This document shows, one piece after another, positions 36,821 to 48,296 of a stretch of 64,000 nucleotides of DNA. Source of the DNA: an uncultured Pseudomonadota bacterium (lineage in GTDB: Bacteria > Pseudomonadota > Gammaproteobacteria > Steroidobacterales > Steroidobacteraceae). Both the position numbers and the translations under genes were made by a program. The notes under the pieces were generated by a model that was given only the letters and a program-made list of their open reading frames with translations, ran no database searches and had not been told where the DNA came from. Location: contig CAILZL010000011.1 in assembly GCA_903838705.1 (NCBI GenBank), forward strand, positions 1-64,000, given 5' to 3'. The first letter of the stretch is position 1; every line of letters begins with the position of its first letter.

Positions 36821-37035
36821 CTTTCTTCAGGTCAATATTCCGACGTAATGCGCTAACTCCTTGACCGCATTCGGCAATACTTTTTGCTTGACATATTCTC
36901 TGGGATTCGTAACTGGGGTTTCTGTTTTATGCACATCCGCAGTGCCGTCTATATGGCATCAGGCCTTGGTGGTCATTTAACATGCTGCTTCTCAAGCAGC
37001 GCTCTCAAGTCATTGTATTTTAAGAATAAATACCA

Positions 37036-37052
37036 TGGTCAATTTTTGACCA
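37036..37052. repeat. 17-base perfect palindrome TGGTCAA-TTT-TTGACCA
   Basis: The arms are 37036-37042 and 37046-37052 with a three-base spacer. It lies about 63 bases upstream of the DnaA boxes in an AT-rich patch. A regulator-binding site or a small hairpin are both possible; the spacing is short for a typical dimeric operator but not unknown. Confidence 0.6.
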
Positions 37053-37114
37053 ATACCACAAACACCATGCAATGAGGCCATTTTGACAGCCTTGTGACAA
37101 GTTCATGCACAGAC

Positions 37115-37137
37115 TTATCCACAGGTTTTGTGGATAA
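37115..37137. promoter_or_regulatory. Pair of inverted perfect DnaA boxes
   Basis: TTATCCACA at 37115-37123 and its reverse complement TGTGGATAA at 37129-37137, separated by five bases, both match the DnaA box consensus exactly. They are 208 bases upstream of rpmE and 2 kb from parA. They could be part of an initiation region, a DnaA-titration site or a DnaA-regulated promoter. The dnaA gene is not in the window. Confidence 0.6.
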
Positions 37138-37344
37138 CCGATTTCACACTTTCCCTGCTCATCTCTGGAGAGGTGCTTCAGGCTTGAAGAAGTGCAGGCT
37201 GGTTATTTTGTATACCGTTACCGGGATTGCCCAGTTAAAAGGCGGTCTTATTTTGATAAACGGACTTTCCTTGCGGAACAGAGGAGGCGCGGCTACACTG
37301 CGCGCCCCATTTTTCTGGAACAGGGCGTCACGCCCAAGACAGTC

Positions 37345-37545
37345 ATGAAAGCCGGCATTCATCCTGAATACAAAGAAATCTCCGTGACTTGCAGCTGTGG
37401 CAACTCGTTTGCTACGCGCTCTACTGGCGGAGATCTGCAGCTTGAAGTGTGTTCCAACTGCCATCCGTTCTATACCGGCAAGCAGAAGACCGTGGACACA
37501 GGCGGTCGCGTCGATAAGTTCCGCAAGAAATACACACGCGGCTGA
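37345..37545 (+). CDS. rpmE: 50S ribosomal protein L31 (zinc-binding form)
   Basis: A 66-residue L31 with [20 protein letters not shown] and [20 protein letters not shown]. Four cysteines (CSC ... CSNC) mark the zinc-holding C+ type. ATG 37345 is set by the family N-terminus; the frame extends upstream but has no matching sequence. A clear terminator follows. Confidence 0.96.
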
Positions 37546-38460: not shown

Positions 38461-38491
38461 TCATAACTTTAAACAGATACCGCATCGGGGC

Positions 38492-39121
38492 ATGAACGAC
38501 ACCTTGATCAAGGCAGCAGCGCATTTCGGAATATCACTGACTGTTGATCAGTCTGGAGCTTTGCGAGTGTTGCTGACCGAGTTGAATGACTGGAATCAGC
38601 GCATCAATCTCACGGCAATCCGGGATCCGGAGCAGCAGTTGACCAAACATCTGCTCGACAGTTTGTCCATTCATCCCTATTTGCGGGGTAATTACATCGC
38701 TGATGTTGGCACAGGAGCCGGGTTCCCGGGTTTGCCGCTGGCGCTGGTGAATCCAGACAAGCAATTTGTTCTGATGGATTCCATCAACAAGAAGTTACGT
38801 TTTGTAAAGCATGCCGCGCAGGTGATGAAGCTGAGTAACGTCGCTGTTCTGCATACGCGTGCTCAGGATCACCGGCCTGCGCGCCGTTTTGATTGCGTGG
38901 TTTCACGGGCCATGGGTTCCATAGAGAATTTTGTTCTATGGTGCGGCCATCTGTGTGCTGACGGTGGACGATTGCTCGCGATGAAAGGGCGTTATCCTGA
39001 CGCGGAGCTGGCCGCTGTACCTGAGGGCTGGCGGGTTGTCGCAATCCATGAACTCAAGGTGCCCGGGCTGGACGAACAGCGTCACCTTGTGGAACTCTGC
39101 AGGAAACAGGGCGCGTGTTGA
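38492..39121 (+). CDS. rsmG: 16S rRNA (guanine-N7) methyltransferase RsmG
   Basis: RsmG methylates G527 of 16S rRNA. The 209-residue product has LTELNDWNQRINLTAIRDPE, HLLDSL, the SAM motif IADVGTGAGFPGLPLALV, and LMDSINKKLRFV and VVSRAM. ATG 38492 starts right at the family N-terminus with GGGG just upstream. mnmG, its classic neighbour, is not next to it. parA follows. Confidence 0.96.
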   Translation: MNDTLIKAAAHFGISLTVDQSGALRVLLTELNDWNQRINLTAIRDPEQQLTKHLLDSLSIHPYLRGNYIADVGTGAGFPGLPLALVNPDKQFVLMDSINKKLRFVKHAAQVMKLSNVAVLHTRAQDHRPARRFDCVVSRAMGSIENFVLWCGHLCADGGRLLAMKGRYPDAELAAVPEGWRVVAIHELKVPGLDEQRHLVELCRKQGAC

Positions 39122-39230
39122 ATCGGCTGATTCCAGGCGACGCTGTGGCAGCCTGTCCATTGTTCAACAGTTGCATTGCCTTGATGTTATTCAAGTAGTC
39201 TACCGACCTTAGCCAGTAACCCAGCTCACC

Positions 39231-40034
39231 ATGAAACGTGTTATCGCTGTTACCAACCAGAAAGGTGGTGTGGGCAAAACCACCACCAGTGTGAATCTCG
39301 CGGCCTCACTTGCGGCAACCCAGCGGCGAGTATTGCTGATTGACATGGATCCGCAGGGAAATGCAACCATGGGCTGCGGGGTTGAAAAGCGCGCATTACA
39401 GCACTCGATCACCGAAGTGTTGTTAGGTGAAGCCGGCATTGAAGAGTCCATGCTGGCAATTGAACATAGCAGATTTACGCTGTTGCCCGGAAATCAGGAT
39501 CTGGTGGCTGCTGAAGTCGGGCTCACCGGCAAGCCGGGTGGCGAGACACGCTTGCGTGAGGTGCTGACGACGATCCGTCCGCAATTTGATGTGATCCTGA
39601 TTGATTGTCCACCCTCTCTCAACATGCTGACCATTAATGCACTGGTGGCGGCTGATTCGGTGTTGATTCCGATGCAGTGTGAGTATTACGCGCTGGAAGG
39701 TTTGACGGCGCTGGTGGATACCATTGAGCAGATCAAGGCAAGCGCCAACCCCGCGCTGCACATTGAAGGCATTCTGCGCACCATGTACGACCCGCGCAAT
39801 AATCTGGCCAATGAAGTGTCACGGCAACTCATCGAACATTTTGGCGAACGGGTTTATCGAACGCTCATACCGCGCAATGTGCGACTGGCAGAAGCGCCCA
39901 GCCATGGACAGCCGGCGCTGGTGTATGACAAGGACTCGCGTGGTGCGCTGGCTTATCTGGCACTGGCAGGAGAAATGTTACGTCGGGAAGACGACCGTAA
40001 GGCAGGCCTTGTGGACGGTGCCGTAGCCAGCTGA
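39231..40034 (+). CDS. parA: Chromosome partitioning ATPase ParA (Soj)
   Basis: ParA is the ATPase that moves ParB-bound origin regions. The 267-residue product begins MKRVIAVTNQKGGVGKTTTS, with the deviant Walker A K11-T17, then LLIDMDPQGNATMGCG and DVILIDCPPSLNMLT. It starts 109 bases after rsmG and pairs with parB 73 bases downstream. Confidence 0.96.
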   Translation: MKRVIAVTNQKGGVGKTTTSVNLAASLAATQRRVLLIDMDPQGNATMGCGVEKRALQHSITEVLLGEAGIEESMLAIEHSRFTLLPGNQDLVAAEVGLTGKPGGETRLREVLTTIRPQFDVILIDCPPSLNMLTINALVAADSVLIPMQCEYYALEGLTALVDTIEQIKASANPALHIEGILRTMYDPRNNLANEVSRQLIEHFGERVYRTLIPRNVRLAEAPSHGQPALVYDKDSRGALAYLALAGEMLRREDDRKAGLVDGAVAS

Positions 40035-40107
40035 TGGATTTTGGCTGGAGTGTTGCTGCCGCGCGCGAGTACACTGCCGTCCCTTTCCGGCCAATCACTG
40101 ATAAATC

Positions 40108-41016
40108 ATGGTCACCAAGCGTACCACCCTAGGACGTGGCCTCGGCGCATTGCTGGGTCAGACTGCCACTGCTAACGAGCCAGAAGCTGCAACTCCGGTT
40201 ACCGGCGCTGTTCGTGATGGTGAACTGGCAAAGCTGCCGGTCGACTTGTTGCAGCGCGGCAAGTACCAGCCGCGACTCGATATGCATCAGGAATCGCTGC
40301 AGGAGCTGGCTGAATCCATCAAGGTGCAGGGCATTATTCAGCCTATCGTGGTGCGGCCACTCGGCGAGCAGGCACCCGGCCAGCCATTGCGCTACGAAAT
40401 TATCGCGGGTGAGCGACGCTGGCGGGCTGCGCAACTGGCGGGGTTGCATGAAGTTCCGGCGCTGATTCGCCGGATTCCCGATGAATCTGCGATCGCCATG
40501 GCGCTGATCGAGAATATCCAGCGCGAAAATCTGAATCCTCTGGAAGAGGCAAAGGCCCTGGAGCGATTGATCAGTGAATTCGATATGACTCACCAGACTG
40601 CGGCCGATGCAGTGGGTCGTTCACGTGCGGCAGTATCGAACTTGTTGCGACTGCTGGATCTTGCCGATGAAGTAAAAGCCCTGCTGGAACGGGGCGAGCT
40701 GGAAATGGGCCATGCGCGTGCCCTGCTGGGGCTGAACGGGTCACGTCGCCAGGTGGAAGTCGGTTTGCTGGTGGCAAAAAAAGGCCTGTCAGTTCGTGAT
40801 ACCGAAGCGCTGGTACGGCGCATGGAGAAAAACGAACATGAACCCGCTGCGCAACCCGTCCGCCCAGATCCGGACATCAAGCGACTTGAAAGCAGGCTTG
40901 CTGAAAAACTCGGTGCCAAAGTGCAGTTGCAGCATTCAGCCAGGGGCAGTGGCAAGCTGGTCATCAATTACAACAATCTGGATGAGCTGGATGGCATTCT
41001 GGCGCATCTGCAATGA
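40108..41016 (+). CDS. parB: Chromosome partitioning protein ParB (Spo0J)
   Basis: ParB binds parS and spreads along the origin region as a CTP-dependent clamp. The 302-residue product has KRTTLGRGLGALLG, LPVDLLQRGKYQPR, the CTPase/ParB motif IAGERRWRAAQLAGL, ALIENIQRENLNPLEEA, the HTH (TAADAVGRSRAAVSNLLRLL) and a C-terminal dimer domain. No full parS consensus was found in the window. Confidence 0.96.
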   Translation: MVTKRTTLGRGLGALLGQTATANEPEAATPVTGAVRDGELAKLPVDLLQRGKYQPRLDMHQESLQELAESIKVQGIIQPIVVRPLGEQAPGQPLRYEIIAGERRWRAAQLAGLHEVPALIRRIPDESAIAMALIENIQRENLNPLEEAKALERLISEFDMTHQTAADAVGRSRAAVSNLLRLLDLADEVKALLERGELEMGHARALLGLNGSRRQVEVGLLVAKKGLSVRDTEALVRRMEKNEHEPAAQPVRPDPDIKRLESRLAEKLGAKVQLQHSARGSGKLVINYNNLDELDGILAHLQ

Positions 41017-41017
41017 G

Positions 41018-41044
41018 CAAATGGCATGAGCAATGAGCCATTTG
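41018..41044 (+). terminator. Possible weak terminator after parB
   Basis: CAAATGGC (41018-41025) and GCCATTTG (41037-41044) can pair across an eleven-base loop, directly after the parB stop. The tail is AT-rich (AGTTAAATAA) but lacks a T-run, so termination is uncertain. Confidence 0.4.
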
Positions 41045-41068
41045 AGTTAAATAACCGCTCGGCTTTTG

Positions 41069-41097
41069 TTGATGCACTTCGAATCGCCCCCTATAAT
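41069..41097 (+). promoter_or_regulatory. Sigma70-type promoter of the atp operon
   Basis: TTGATG (41069-41074), a 17-base spacer and a perfect TATAAT (41092-41097) lie upstream of atpI. The -10 is consensus and the -35 matches at four of six positions. Confidence 0.7.
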
Positions 41098-41159
41098 CCG
41101 CCGCCTTCAATCGGGGGTGACTCCGGTTTTGGGTTGTACAGACGGGCAATGAACGCGCA

Positions 41160-41525
41160 ATGCTGAGTTCAACAGTTCGTCAAGGTGTGCGGATTCTGGG
41201 TTGGCAGCTGGCGGGAATGATCCTGCTGACAGGGTTGATCTGGATGTATGACGGACGGATTGCTCGCTCGTTGCTGGCAGGTAGCGGAATCGGTCTGCTG
41301 GCAACCAGTTATCTGGTGTTTGTGCTGATCAAGCACGATATGCAGCCCGCGCGCCCGGCCAGTGTTTTGAGTTTTTTTGCCAACTGGTTTGTAAAGACTC
41401 TGTTGGTGCTGGGTCTGCTGATGATTGCGATGCGATCCAGATCGTTGTTGCCTGAGGCGATATTGCTCGGGCTGGCGTTGAGTCTGGTGATGTACTGGCT
41501 GGCCGTAATGACGCGGCGAAGCTAG
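41160..41525 (+). CDS. atpI: ATP synthase subunit I (AtpI)
   Basis: AtpI assists assembly of the c-ring. The 121-residue membrane protein has four helices and the family pattern SLLAGSGIGLLATSYLVF and FFANWFVKTLLVLGLL. It is the first gene of atpIBEFHAGDC, 62 bases after the proposed -10. Confidence 0.9.
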   Translation: MLSSTVRQGVRILGWQLAGMILLTGLIWMYDGRIARSLLAGSGIGLLATSYLVFVLIKHDMQPARPASVLSFFANWFVKTLLVLGLLMIAMRSRSLLPEAILLGLALSLVMYWLAVMTRRS

Positions 41526-41554
41526 AAGAAGTGACAGGAATAGAGACAAGTCGA

Positions 41555-42439
41555 ATGGCTGAATTAGAGACAATGGCGAATGAAGGCGGCGCGGTTAAAG
41601 AAACCATGTCCGAATACATTTCGCACCATTTGACTCATCTTTCCAGCAGACCAGCCTCTGGTTTGTTTGATTTCGCATTTGATGCGATGCATCTGGACAC
41701 TCTGTTTTTCTCTTTGTTGTGTGCGCTGATAGTGCTGATCCCATTGCGAATGGCTGCTTCACGTGCCACTGCTGGCGTGCCCGGCAAGTTCCAGCTGGCA
41801 GTTGAGTTGCTGCTAGAGTGGGTCAATGATCAGGCCAAGACGCTGGTGCATGGCAAGCTCGATTACATTGCGCCCCTCGCGCTTACCATTTTCACCTGGG
41901 TCACAGTCATGAATGCAGTGGACTTGCTGCCGGTGGACTGGCTGCCGTGGGTAGGTAAGCATGTATTTGGAGTGGAACATCTGCGACCGCTGGTGACTGC
42001 AGATATCAACGGTACGCTTGGTATGTCTCTGGGCGTGCTGTTGCTGGTGTTCTACTACAACCTGAAGATCAAGGGCGTGGGCGGCTACATCCACCAGTTG
42101 CTGTGCGCGCCATTCGGCATGCTGAAAATCAGCATGAATCCGCTGACATGGATCGGAGCGCTGTTGCTGGCGGTAGTTAATGTTGCAATGAATTGCGTGG
42201 AATACATTTCCAACACACTGTCGCATGGCATGCGACTTTACGGAAACATGTACGCCGGCGAACTGATTTTCTTTCTGATTGCGGGTCTGGGTGCAAGCGG
42301 CACAGCGCTGGGCATCGGCCTGCATCTGTTTACCGGCACAATCTGGGCAATATTCCATATCCTGATTGTGCTGTTGCAAGCCTTTATTTTCATGATGCTG
42401 ACGCTGGTATACATCGGCCAGGCGCATGACAAGCACTGA
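41555..42439 (+). CDS. atpB: F0F1 ATP synthase subunit a
   Basis: Subunit a forms the proton path against the c-ring. The product has about 294 residues with SEYISHHLTHLSS near the start, FTWVTVMNAVDLLPVDWLP, and the key Arg in SHGMRLYGNMYAGELIF. The start is ambiguous: GTG 41531, ATG 41555 and ATG 41573 share the frame and none is clearly favoured. Confidence 0.94.
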   Translation: MAELETMANEGGAVKETMSEYISHHLTHLSSRPASGLFDFAFDAMHLDTLFFSLLCALIVLIPLRMAASRATAGVPGKFQLAVELLLEWVNDQAKTLVHGKLDYIAPLALTIFTWVTVMNAVDLLPVDWLPWVGKHVFGVEHLRPLVTADINGTLGMSLGVLLLVFYYNLKIKGVGGYIHQLLCAPFGMLKISMNPLTWIGALLLAVVNVAMNCVEYISNTLSHGMRLYGNMYAGELIFFLIAGLGASGTALGIGLHLFTGTIWAIFHILIVLLQAFIFMMLTLVYIGQAHDKH

Positions 42440-42489
42440 TTTGATTTGTTGACGTTTTCTTTCACCACTGGTTCTAACGGAGAACTTAA

Positions 42490-42732
<243 letters not shown>

Positions 42733-42834
42733 GTACAGAATCTGCACGTCTGGCGGTTAGTTCCGTCCGGCGTAGCCGATTCACTCACTGAAGTGGTGCC
42801 GCGTGGTACTGCCTAGAGTAGGTCTCAGGATCGT

Positions 42835-43314
42835 ATGAATCTTACTGCAACATTATTTATCCAGACGCTGGTCTTGCTGATTCTCGGCTGGGTCACGATG
42901 AAGTTCATCTGGCCACCGCTGATTGCGGCAATCGAAGAGCGGCAGCGCAAAATTGCCGATGGTCTGGCTGCTGCTGACAAAGGCGAGAAAAGTCTGGCCG
43001 AAGCGCAGGCTTCAGCCGCTGACATCGTCAAGGAAGCGCGCGTTCAGGCTGGCAAGATTGTTGATCAGGCGCATCGTCGTTCCACCGAAATGGTTGATGA
43101 GGCAAAAAGCACTGCACTGGCCGAAGGTCAGCGTCTGGTAGGTGATGCCCGTCAGGAAGTGGTACTGGAGAAAAGCCGTCTGCGCGATCAGTTGCGCGCT
43201 GAAGTCGGTACGCTGGCCATTGCCGGTGCATCACGGGTGCTGGGTCGTGAAATCGATGCAAAGGCGCATGCTGATCTGATTGAACAGCTGGCCCTCGAAA
43301 TCGAGCGCGGTTAA
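42835..43314 (+). CDS. atpF: F0F1 ATP synthase subunit b
   Basis: The stator stalk protein, 159 residues: an N-terminal helix (ATLFIQTLVLLILGWVTMKF) starting MNLTATLF, IWPPLIAAIEERQRKIADGL, then a long charged coiled coil rich in Ala, Glu and Lys. Length is normal. Confidence 0.95.
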   Translation: MNLTATLFIQTLVLLILGWVTMKFIWPPLIAAIEERQRKIADGLAAADKGEKSLAEAQASAADIVKEARVQAGKIVDQAHRRSTEMVDEAKSTALAEGQRLVGDARQEVVLEKSRLRDQLRAEVGTLAIAGASRVLGREIDAKAHADLIEQLALEIERG

Positions 43315-43323
43315 GGAGCAAGC

Positions 43324-43860
43324 ATGGCCGAAAAAGCCACAATCGCCCGACCCTATGCGCGTGCCGCTTTCGAGTATGCAAAGCAGCATGGTGCTTTTAG
43401 GCAATGGTCAGAATCGCTGGCTATTGCGGCTGCGGTTGCCAGTGATCCTGCTGCAAAGCGGTTGCTGAATCACCCGCGCGTCTCTGCGGCACAGCTGGTT
43501 GATCTGATTGCTGATGTGGCTGGCAGTCAGCTTGATGTTTCGGCGCGTAACTTCATTGCCACGCTTGCACAGAATCGTCGTCTGGGATTGTTGCCTTACA
43601 TCACTGAGATGTATGAGGCATTGCGTGCAGATGTTGAAGGCATTGCGGATGTTGAAGTGATTTCGGCGGTGCCGCTTGATGCGGCGCAACAGCAACGGCT
43701 GACTGCTGCTCTGAAGACACGGCTCAAGCGTGAAGTGCGCATGCATTGTTCTGTCGATGCAAGGCTGGTGGGTGGTGCAGTGGTGCGTTATGGCGATCTG
43801 GTGATCGATGGTTCGGTCAAAGAGCGCCTTGCCCGTCTGGCTAATGTGGTTATCAATTAA
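43324..43860 (+). CDS. atpH: F0F1 ATP synthase subunit delta
   Basis: Delta links the stator stalk to the top of F1. The 178-residue product has TIARPYARAAFEYAKQHGA, the NFIATLAQNRRLGLLPYI segment, and the C-terminal VGGAVVRYGDLVIDGSVKE with RLARLANV. It starts ten bases after atpF. Confidence 0.95.
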   Translation: MAEKATIARPYARAAFEYAKQHGAFRQWSESLAIAAAVASDPAAKRLLNHPRVSAAQLVDLIADVAGSQLDVSARNFIATLAQNRRLGLLPYITEMYEALRADVEGIADVEVISAVPLDAAQQQRLTAALKTRLKREVRMHCSVDARLVGGAVVRYGDLVIDGSVKERLARLANVVIN

Positions 43861-43912
43861 TTATCAAGAAACCGGCACACTCGGTTGACCGAGTTCCTGT
43901 GAGGAAGTGGAC

Positions 43913-45451
43913 ATGTCCATCAAGGCATCTGAAATTAGCGACCTGATCAAAAACAAGATTGCCCAGTTTTCGGCTGCAACCGAAGACCGCAATGTCGGTA
44001 CAGTCGTGACCGTAACGGACGGTATCGTGCGTGTGCACGGTCTGGCTGATGTGAAGTACGGTGAAATGCTTGAATTTCCGGGTGGCAGCTTCGGTCTGGC
44101 CCTGAACCTCGAACAGGATTCCGTGGGTTCGGTGGTGCTGGGTGAATACAAGCACATCACGGAAGGCGATACAGTGAAGACCACTGGCCGCATTCTGGAA
44201 GTGCCTGTGGGTGAAGGCCTGCTGGGTCGTGTAGTTGATGCGCTGGGTAATCCGATTGACGGCAAGGGTCCGATCAATGCAGCGCGCCAGGCTCCGATTG
44301 AGCGCGTGGCGCCGGGCGTGATCTATCGTAAGTCGGTAAATCAGCCGGTACAGACTGGATATAAGGCAGTCGACTCGATGGTTCCGATCGGTCGTGGCCA
44401 GCGTGAGCTGATCATCGGCGATCGTCAGACCGGCAAGACCGCAATGGCGGTAGATGCCATCATCAATCAGAAGGGCAGCGGCATTAAGTGTATTTACGTT
44501 GCCATCGGTCAGAAGCAATCTTCGATCGCCAATGTGGTGCGCAAGCTTGAAGAACATGGCGCGATGGATCACACCATCATCGTGGCTGCTTCGGCCTCCA
44601 CGCCCGCCGCCATGCAATACCTCGCACCTTATGCAGGTTGCGCAATGGGCGAATACTTCATGGATCAGGGTGAAGACGCACTGGTCATATATGACGACCT
44701 GACCAAGCAGGCTTGGGCGTATCGTCAGATTTCATTGCTGTTGCGCCGTCCACCGGGCCGCGAAGCTTATCCCGGCGACGTGTTCTACCTGCACTCACGT
44801 CTGCTGGAGCGTGCAGCGCGCGTCAATGAAGAATACGTTGAGAAGGCCACCAATGGCCGCGTGAAAGGCAAGACCGGTTCATTGACAGGTCTGCCCATCA
44901 TTGAAACTCAGGCCGGTGACGTGACTGCCTTCGTACCGACTAACGTGATTTCGATTACGGACGGCCAGATCTTCCTGGAATCCGATCTGTTTAATGCAGG
45001 TATCCGTCCTGCCATGAACGCTGGTATCTCAGTATCCCGCGTGGGTGGTGCAGCACAGACGGACATCATCAAGCGTCTGGGCGGCGGTATCCGTCTGTCA
45101 CTCGCTCAGTATCGTGAGCTGGCGGCCTTCTCGCAGTTTGCTTCTGACCTCGACGAAGCAACCCGTAAGCAGCTGGAACGCGGACAGCGCGTGACCGAGC
45201 TGATGAAGCAGAAGCAGTATGCACCGATGTCGGTGGCTGAAATGGCGTTGTCTATTTACGCTGTGAATAACGGATATCTGGATCAGGTGGCAATCAACAA
45301 GGTCAATGCTTTTGAAAGTGCCTTGCAATCATTTGCCAGAAACAGCTTCAAGGCAGATGTAGATGCCATCAATGCTGAGCCCGTGTTGAAGAAGTACGAA
45401 GCGACTTTGAAGAAGATATGCGATGAATTTGCAGCATCCGGTAGTTACTAG
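43913..45451 (+). CDS. atpA: F0F1 ATP synthase subunit alpha
   Basis: Alpha is the non-catalytic nucleotide-binding subunit. The product has 512 residues with the Walker [27 protein letters not shown], and [23 protein letters not shown] 43913, preceded by GAGGAAG, gives the family start [13 protein letters not shown]; a GTG two codons upstream is not needed. Confidence 0.97.
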
Positions 45452-45488
45452 TCGCCCCACACTGCCAAACAAGTACTGACCCAACGAC

Positions 45489-46352
45489 ATGCCCGGCACA
45501 AAAGAAATTCGCACCAAGATCGCGAGTATCAAAAATACTCAGAAGATCACCAAGGCCATGCAGATGGTGGCTGCCAGCAAAATGCGCAAGGCGCAGGATC
45601 GCATGCGGGCAACGCGGCCGTACTCGGAACGCATCCGTCGCGTGATCGGTCACCTGCGTCTGGCCAATCCGGATTTCAAGCATCCATACCTGCTGGAGCG
45701 CGAAGCACAGGCTGTTGGGTTCATCATTGTCAGCACGGATCGTGGCTTGTGCGGCGGCCTGAATGTCAATCTGTTCAAGGCGGCGCTGGCCTCCATGCGC
45801 GAATGGCAGGCCAAGGGTTGTTCTGTTCATCTCAGCCTGATCGGTTCCAAGGCAGTGCAATTTTTCCGACGGCTTAAGAATGTCGAAACATTGGGTACGG
45901 TGACCCATCTCGGCGATCATCCACACGTGACTGACCTCATCGGCAACGTCAAGGTGATGCTGGATATGTATCGTGAAGGCAAGCTGGATCGTCTGTACGT
46001 CGTGAACAACGTATTCGTCAACAGCATGACCCAGAAGCCAACCGTCAAACAGCTTTTGCCGGTGGTTACAGAAGACGAAGACAAGTTGCAGAAGATGTGG
46101 GATTACATCTATGAGCCTTCTGCTGCGGAATTGCTGGAAGGAATGCTGATGCGTTACATCGAATCGCAGGTCTACCAGGGTTCAGTAGAAAATGTGGCGT
46201 GCGAAATGGCAGCGCGAATGGTTGCCATGAAGAGCGCAACCGACAACGCGGGATCATTGATCAGCGAACTGCAGCGTGTTTATAACAAGGCACGTCAGGC
46301 CGCGATCACCAAGGAAATTTCGGAGATCGTCGGTGGCGCTGCTGCGGTGTGA
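45489..46352 (+). CDS. atpG: F0F1 ATP synthase subunit gamma
   Basis: The central rotor shaft, 287 residues: starts [20 protein letters not shown], has [32 protein letters not shown], and ends in [20 protein letters not shown]. All hallmark helices are present. Confidence 0.97.
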
Positions 46353-46380
46353 TCGACTGATTAAAGAATTTGCTTATTGA

Positions 46381-47856
<1,476 letters not shown>

Positions 47857-47879
47857 GCAGCACGGGCACAAGGCAGGTC

Positions 47880-48296
47880 ATGGCAACCATACATGTTGAT
47901 GTCGTAAGCGCCGAAGGCGAAATCTTCAGCGGTGAAGCTGCAATGGTGTTCGCGCCGGCACAGCTGGGTGAAATCGGCATCGCTCCCCGGCATGCACCGC
48001 TGCTCACCACGCTGCGTGCAGGCGAGCTGCGTGTCCAGTTACCTTCCGGCGAAGAACAGCATGTCTATGTTTCCGGCGGTGCGCTGGAAGTGCAACCGCA
48101 CCTGGTGACTGTGCTGGCTGACACTGCCATTCGCGCTAAGGATCTGGATGAAGCTGCTGCGCTGCAGGCCAAGCAACGGGCCGAAGAAGTGCTGGCCAGT
48201 CGCAGTGACACTCTGGAAATGGCCGAAGCACAGGCGGAACTGCTGCGTGCCGTGGCACAGCTCAAAGCCATCGACCGGTTGCGCAAACAAAAATAA
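47880..48296 (+). CDS. atpC: F0F1 ATP synthase subunit epsilon
   Basis: Epsilon regulates and connects the rotor, 138 residues. The N-terminal beta sandwich has [17 protein letters not shown] and [17 protein letters not shown], and the C-terminal helices are Ala/Glu/Lys-rich ([15 protein letters not shown]). It is the last gene of the operon, before a terminator. Confidence 0.96.

Follow-up and report, generated by a model that had tools for sequence, protein, structure and literature searches.

The region analysed here, referred to below as the window, comprises the first 64,000 nucleotides of contig C11 (C11:1-64000) in the 2.74-Mb draft genome (43 contigs) of an uncultured member of the Steroidobacteraceae. 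The 524-bp gap between hemW and rpmE houses a composite element of about 130 bases (about 37006-37137), which unites DnaA boxes and a 17-base palindrome (Table 1). Both the two opposed perfect boxes 5 bp apart and the palindrome 63 bp before the first of them were located as the original prediction had described them. Its count of only two boxes, by contrast, overlooked a third, which lies 3 bp ahead of the inverted pair and gives the core the layout III-3bp-II-5bp-I. The palindrome is an exact match to the Fis consensus GnnYAnnnnnTRnnC, with its start 66 bp before box III. An exact scan of the hemW-rpmE gap did not find the IHF consensus; the sole IHF-like match at the conserved offset in the window sits outside all three DnaA boxes. 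A consensus promoter scan called none at the position of the candidate rpmE promoter. Just ahead of the rpmE start, at 37323-37345, lies a GGGCG-TCA-CGCCC inverted repeat, partly kept in the fetched locus L005; we presume that this may be an L31 autoregulation leader, for which Rfam gave no match.

Table 1. Features of the hemW-rpmE gap and the downstream gene, in window coordinates
Feature	Position	Strand	Sequence and remarks
IHF-like site	37006-37018	+	CAAGTCATTGTAT; weak, 3 mismatches to TAAnnnnTTGATW; -97 from box III
17-base palindrome	37036-37052	no strand	TGGTCAATTTTTGACCA; holds the Fis-consensus 15-mer
Predicted Fis site	37037-37051		GGTCAATTTTTGACC; perfect consensus; 66 bp before box III
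DnaA box III	37103-37111	+	TCATGCACA; one mismatch to TTWTNCACA; same-direction box at exactly 3 bp conserved
DnaA box II	37115-37123	+	TTATCCACA; perfect; pair kept in 129/196 order genomes
DnaA box I	37129-37137	-	TGTGGATAA on the + strand, TTATCCACA on the - strand; perfect; faces box II across 5 bp
Candidate rpmE promoter	37271-37299	+	TTGCGG-17-TACACT, read by eye; conserved in L005; outside the composite element
rpmE (ribosomal protein L31)	37345-37545	+	PF01197 and TIGR00105 above cut-off (Pfam, NCBIfam); downstream gene

Within the draft genome, the perfect inverted pair is unique when 0-12 bp are allowed between the boxes, and a reversed-pattern control gave 0 matches in the genome. 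Single boxes are not enriched in the window (6 relaxed boxes vs 4.6 expected from shuffles), and perfect single boxes number 19 genome-wide vs 21 expected by simple base arithmetic.

Conservation of the boxes in relatives, which the original prediction had proposed as a check, is strong. In the sample from the order, the inverted pair was found in 129 of 196 genomes when a spacing of 3-8 bp was allowed, with a spacing of exactly 5 bp in every pair among the matches listed; the reversed-pattern control gave zero matches in this sample. The other 31 spacings (6-36 bp) produced matches in 8 of the 196 genomes, 6 of which are boxes III and I of the same element. The remaining two are a different box cluster (genome G004) and a 21-copy repeat (genome G164). 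The latter genome has 21 copies, spread over several contigs, of an inverted repeat that is 43-44 bp long and bounded by perfect DnaA boxes; it may represent a small mobile element. The class sample (369 genomes) has the exact pair in 152, and the phylum sample (299 genomes) in 42; the pair is absent from 67 of the 196 order genomes and 217 of the 369 class genomes. When 3 mismatches are tolerated, matches appear in 60 of the 67 pair-less order genomes and in 15 of 67 in the reversed control. Since the reversed control also matches, imperfect pairs were used only for context and for one-sided changes. A scan for RpmE fetched 80 loci, some of which end at contig ends, with the exact pair in 14 and not in 66; these loci and the order sample may have species in common.

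The third box is likewise fixed in position. Among 74 distinct elements, a box within one mismatch, in the direction of its neighbour and exactly 3 bp outside the pair, is present in 43, and at any other gap from 0 to 35 bp in at most 1. In a later set of 36 elements, in which locus L219 re-fetches L104 and loci L101 and L102 share identical flanks, box III lies at gap 3 in 25 (within one mismatch) or 34 (within two), and any other gap yields at most one within one mismatch. The core consensus is about TNNTCCACA-GAS-TTATCCACA-GNTTY-TGTGGATAA.

Outside the core, nearly all of the conservation is on the side of box III, where it extends to about -98. The flank analyses kept elements with box III within 2 mismatches (113, 112 and 113 elements); the check outside the order kept all 127 elements, of which 112 pass the box III filter. 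Within the 150 bp upstream, 59 of 113 elements have an exact Fis consensus, vs 10.4 over 100 dinucleotide shuffles (sd 3.6, maximum 25); 52 of 63 such sites begin 65-69 bp ahead of box III, with 40 at exactly 66. On the flank past box I, the corresponding figure is 21 vs 10.6 in shuffles (maximum 20), a mild excess. In the palindrome of locus L005 (GGTTAATTTTTAACC), both halves are altered together. For the IHF consensus TAAnnnnTTGATW, a match with at most 2 mismatches sits between -101 and -95 in 97 of the 113 elements, vs a mean of 2.9 (maximum 7) in other stretches. The earlier suggestion that the pair is DnaA-related and that the palindrome belongs with it holds; the distance at which the palindrome provides a Fis consensus is conserved. 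Two further conserved patches lie at about -51 to -44 and -27 to -23 from box III (window 37052-37059 and 37076-37080); one follows the Fis site and the other is GC-rich.

The same arrangement is seen outside the order. Among 65 elements from there, box III (within two mismatches) is present in 62, the Fis consensus (within one mismatch) in 50, the IHF consensus (within two mismatches) in 55, and both flank sites in 48, compared with control means of 4.2 for Fis (maximum 17) and 2.8 for IHF (maximum 5). When only the 45 elements with dissimilar flanks are considered, the counts are 43 for box III, 37 for Fis, 37 for IHF and 35 for Fis and IHF together. When trained on 62 of these 65, a weight matrix scored the window element highest among 127,722 positions. 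A matrix restricted to the flank, and hence devoid of DnaA boxes, also placed it first with 44.0 bits; the next position in the window reached 16.0 bits, and the best elsewhere in the examined pieces of C8 and C11 reached 19.8 bits. Support for the complete element stays within the class: the 19 phylum-sample elements include 9 with box III (at most 2 mismatches), 9 with Fis and 4 with IHF, and both flank sites are present in only 3.

The fetched elements, 158 in number (30 of them imperfect pairs), are recurrently linked to two genes, namely rpmE, which has the element upstream in 56 cases, and priA, which has it there in 41; rsmG-parAB, considered as the key neighbour, was set aside in favour of this linkage. 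By sample, the neighbours are rpmE at 14 loci in the RpmE scan, rpmE at 29 and priA at 1 in the exact order set, rpmE at 7, priA at 16 and others at 7 in the imperfect order set, rpmE at 6, priA at 23 and others at 36 in the class set, and priA at 1 and others at 18 in the phylum set. At rpmE and priA, all 97 of 97 elements point towards the gene. Descent of all elements from one site flanked by divergently oriented priA and rpmE was also considered and was dropped because the element points at each gene where it lies upstream. In E. coli K-12, the priA-rpmE gap contains no pair within 5 mismatches. A second three-box core is present on C11 itself (C11:132871-132893; L179:1501-1523), about 50 bp before priA and with one mismatch in the pair; it lacks the conserved Fis/IHF flank (core 27.2 bits, flank -33.3 bits).

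The uniform orientation at these two genes would suit a DnaA/Fis/IHF operator acting in cis, through which transcription of rpmE, or elsewhere of priA, would be tied to the level or nucleotide state of DnaA, a known transcription regulator (PMC11317965). This is the DnaA-controlled promoter of the original prediction in extended form, and we consider it rather unlikely. The common orientation may reflect plain inheritance, and the distance to the start codon varies widely, from 68 to 692 bp at rpmE and from about 9 to 327 bp at priA. In the window, the candidate promoter lies 134 bp beyond box I. Moreover, 61 of the 158 elements have neither rpmE nor priA in reach (one, L190, lies behind rpmE), and there the next ORF runs as often against the element as with it: among 33 other loci of the class, it runs with the element in 13 and against it in 19, with none at 1. 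Such mixed orientation is as expected for a trans-acting site. Together with the variable distance to the gene, it suggests that a cis function is not the main role, while the constant orientation at rpmE and priA is compatible with such a role there.

The reading that we favour, with reasonable though incomplete confidence, is that the window element is a DARS2-type DnaA-reactivating site in which the order of the Fis and IHF sites has changed. A DARS is defined by three DnaA boxes, with box I opposed to boxes II and III (PMC5742627, PMC8682772). Three boxes at fixed spacing, Fis and IHF consensus positions in relatives and conservation across the sampled class are features observed here, and the three-box geometry, the fixed distances of the Fis and IHF consensus and the mixed orientation in combination favour a site of the DARS type. 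This option was absent from the original prediction, which had offered an origin, a titration site or a DnaA-controlled promoter. The element is classed as a variant of DARS rather than as DARS2 because its internal order and its genomic place differ.

Fis and IHF are probably DnaA's helpers at the element, and by analogy with the E. coli system we infer that the proteins bind there and that DnaA releases ADP. In such a scheme, ADP-DnaA would bind boxes II and I head to head, and box III would take up another DnaA molecule. On the box III side, the DNA would be shaped by Fis (at -66) and IHF (near -98), which would also stabilise the complex, and contact between DnaA molecules would drive ADP out. 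Finally, apo-DnaA would depart and take up ATP, becoming competent again at oriC. The proteins in question are available, as dnaA, fis, ihfA and ihfB are all encoded in the genome of the window. IHF alpha, IHF beta and Fis score above the NCBIfam cut-offs, Fis narrowly (101.8 vs 99). DnaA is 67.9% identical to E. coli DnaA and keeps D269, R285 and L290; E21, the DiaA contact, is replaced by Q. The roles of these residues are in part those described in PMC5742627.

Several points count against the DARS reading. The order is core-Fis-IHF, as opposed to core-IHF-Fis in E. coli, and the IHF match in the window is weak. The 97 of 97 orientation at rpmE and priA is something that a trans-acting site does not require. 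The second core before priA lacks the flank, many genomes lack the exact pair, E21 is Q, and the Fis consensus is in mild excess past box I as well (21 vs 10.6). In a more far-reaching version, which we regard as improbable, the element would represent a second Fis/IHF-assisted architecture (core-Fis-IHF) that is common across the class and may predate the E. coli loci. It would act on DnaA in trans and, at the same time, on rpmE and priA in cis, and would thereby couple ribosome supply and replication restart to the nucleotide cycle of DnaA.

To date, the conservation of DARS2, as far as it is set out in the available descriptions, concerns species near E. coli, namely E. coli and seven relatives (PMC8682772; also PMC4245941). 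Literature searches at the level of titles and abstracts, in a library of largely open-access papers, returned no report of the present element. If the DARS reading is true, DNA-based recharging of DnaA would be widespread, and dozens of natural variants would be at hand for testing the effects of Fis and IHF position on ADP release. It also raises the question of why such elements settle near rpmE and priA.

Perfect, high-affinity boxes outside oriC would also be compatible with a titration site or a datA-like site that merely binds DnaA or promotes ATP hydrolysis, and titration has been argued for the E. coli chromosome (PMC12371093). We think this improbable for the window element. Titration has no need for a fixed head-to-head spacing, for box III at 3 bp or for a Fis site at 66 bp. 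As for datA, its IHF site is described as lying between the boxes (PMC5742627), whereas the IHF-like site of the window lies outside all three.

That the element forms part of the chromosomal replication origin, as the original prediction had also entertained, is very improbable. The argument for it is the adjoining rsmG-parA-parB-atp cluster, since these genes are often found near oriC. The distances given for them hold: parA, placed about 2 kb away, starts 2.1 kb past the pair; for the atp operon, placed about 4 kb away, the first gene tested, which encodes the ATP-synthase A chain (41531), lies 4.4 kb past it. The composition of the contigs argues otherwise. The 230-kb C11, which carries the pair, has positive GC skew in 23 of 24 ten-kb bins and no switch point. 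On C8, the change from negative to positive skew comes near 38-40 kb, placing the cumulative minimum 2-4 kb from dnaA (35.0-36.4 kb). The gap said to be AT-rich is only mildly so: the hemW-rpmE gap has 54% AT, against 71% in the dnaA-dnaN gap, which also contains three boxes within one mismatch. Furthermore, in four single-contig relatives the cores lie 0.09-1.03 Mb from dnaA, if circular chromosomes are assumed (G029, 0.09 Mb; G274, 1.03 and 1.00 Mb; G213, 0.25 and 1.00 Mb; G228, 0.98 Mb). On the skew data and the dnaA-dnaN gap, the origin reading was rejected, and oriC probably lies at dnaA-dnaN on C8, where the identity of dnaN was confirmed. In that gap (C8:34808-35048; L003:6309-6549), a run of TAG/TAA-like triplets stands beside one box, which we take to resemble DnaA-trios. 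C11 carries the rsmG-parA-parB-atp genes (window 38480-48000), and C8 carries dnaA, dnaN, yidC and mnmE; this may reflect a split of the usual origin cluster or just its spread over two contigs.

It is scarcely credible that the pair, whose predicted fold is a 9-bp stem closed by a 5-base loop, is a transcribed RNA hairpin (an rpmE leader or terminator) resembling DnaA boxes by accident, since compensatory change was found in 0 of 30 imperfect pairs (related genomes being counted repeatedly), Rfam gave no match near the gathering score, the fold is no better than that of shuffles (z -1.15), and the element also lies upstream of priA and other genes.

Among known systems, datA resembles the window element as a DnaA-box site outside the origin that uses IHF. 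It is described as having its IHF site between the boxes and as promoting ATP hydrolysis, not ADP release (PMC5742627), and differs from the window, where the IHF-like site lies outside the boxes. DnaA-regulated promoters with double boxes likewise have two DnaA boxes close together upstream of genes. These have been modelled as tandem boxes 2-3 bp apart (PMC11317965), unlike the inverted pair at 5 bp and the third box at 3 bp seen here.

The closest counterparts of the favoured DARS-type site are DARS1 and DARS2, in which box I is opposite boxes II and III with equal spacing at both loci (PMC5742627). In E. coli K-12 (NC_000913), the bioD-uvrB gap reads TTATCCACT-5-TGTGGATAA-3-TGTGTATTA and the rppH-mutH gap TTATTCACC-5-TGTGGATAG-3-TGTGAAGAA; boxes I-III were assigned to these sequences in the present analysis by fit to the published description. 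As a check, the IHF-like sites at -87 and -71 in DARS2 are 3 bp apart, and IBS1-2 of DARS2 have been published as 3 bp apart (PMC4245941). The window shares this core, with three boxes, box I opposite II and III, and spacings of 5 and 3 bp.

With DARS2, the likeness of the element family extends beyond the I-5bp-II-3bp-III core to consensus sites for Fis and IHF in the flank next to box III. There, the window itself has a predicted Fis site of perfect consensus at a conserved position and an IHF-like match with 3 mismatches. Both Fis and IHF are required at DARS2 (PMC4245941). The internal order differs. E. coli has IHF at -87/-71 and the required Fis site near -125 (core-IHF-Fis), whereas the window has the Fis consensus at -66 and the IHF-like match at -97, and the relatives have their IHF consensus near -98 (core-Fis-IHF). 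In addition, the E. coli boxes are more degenerate, and DARS2 lies beside mutH/rppH, unlike the window element between hemW and rpmE.

DARS1, in the bioD-uvrB gap, is reported to need only a short flank (PMC5742627, PMC4585315), and the Fis consensus was not found at -66 there. Its core geometry is the same and scores 37.1 bits with the core matrix; its flank scores 11.7 bits, and an IHF-like match (2 mismatches) lies at -99 from box III (L178). Given this match and the flank score, DARS1 may be a worn relative of the element family represented in the window.
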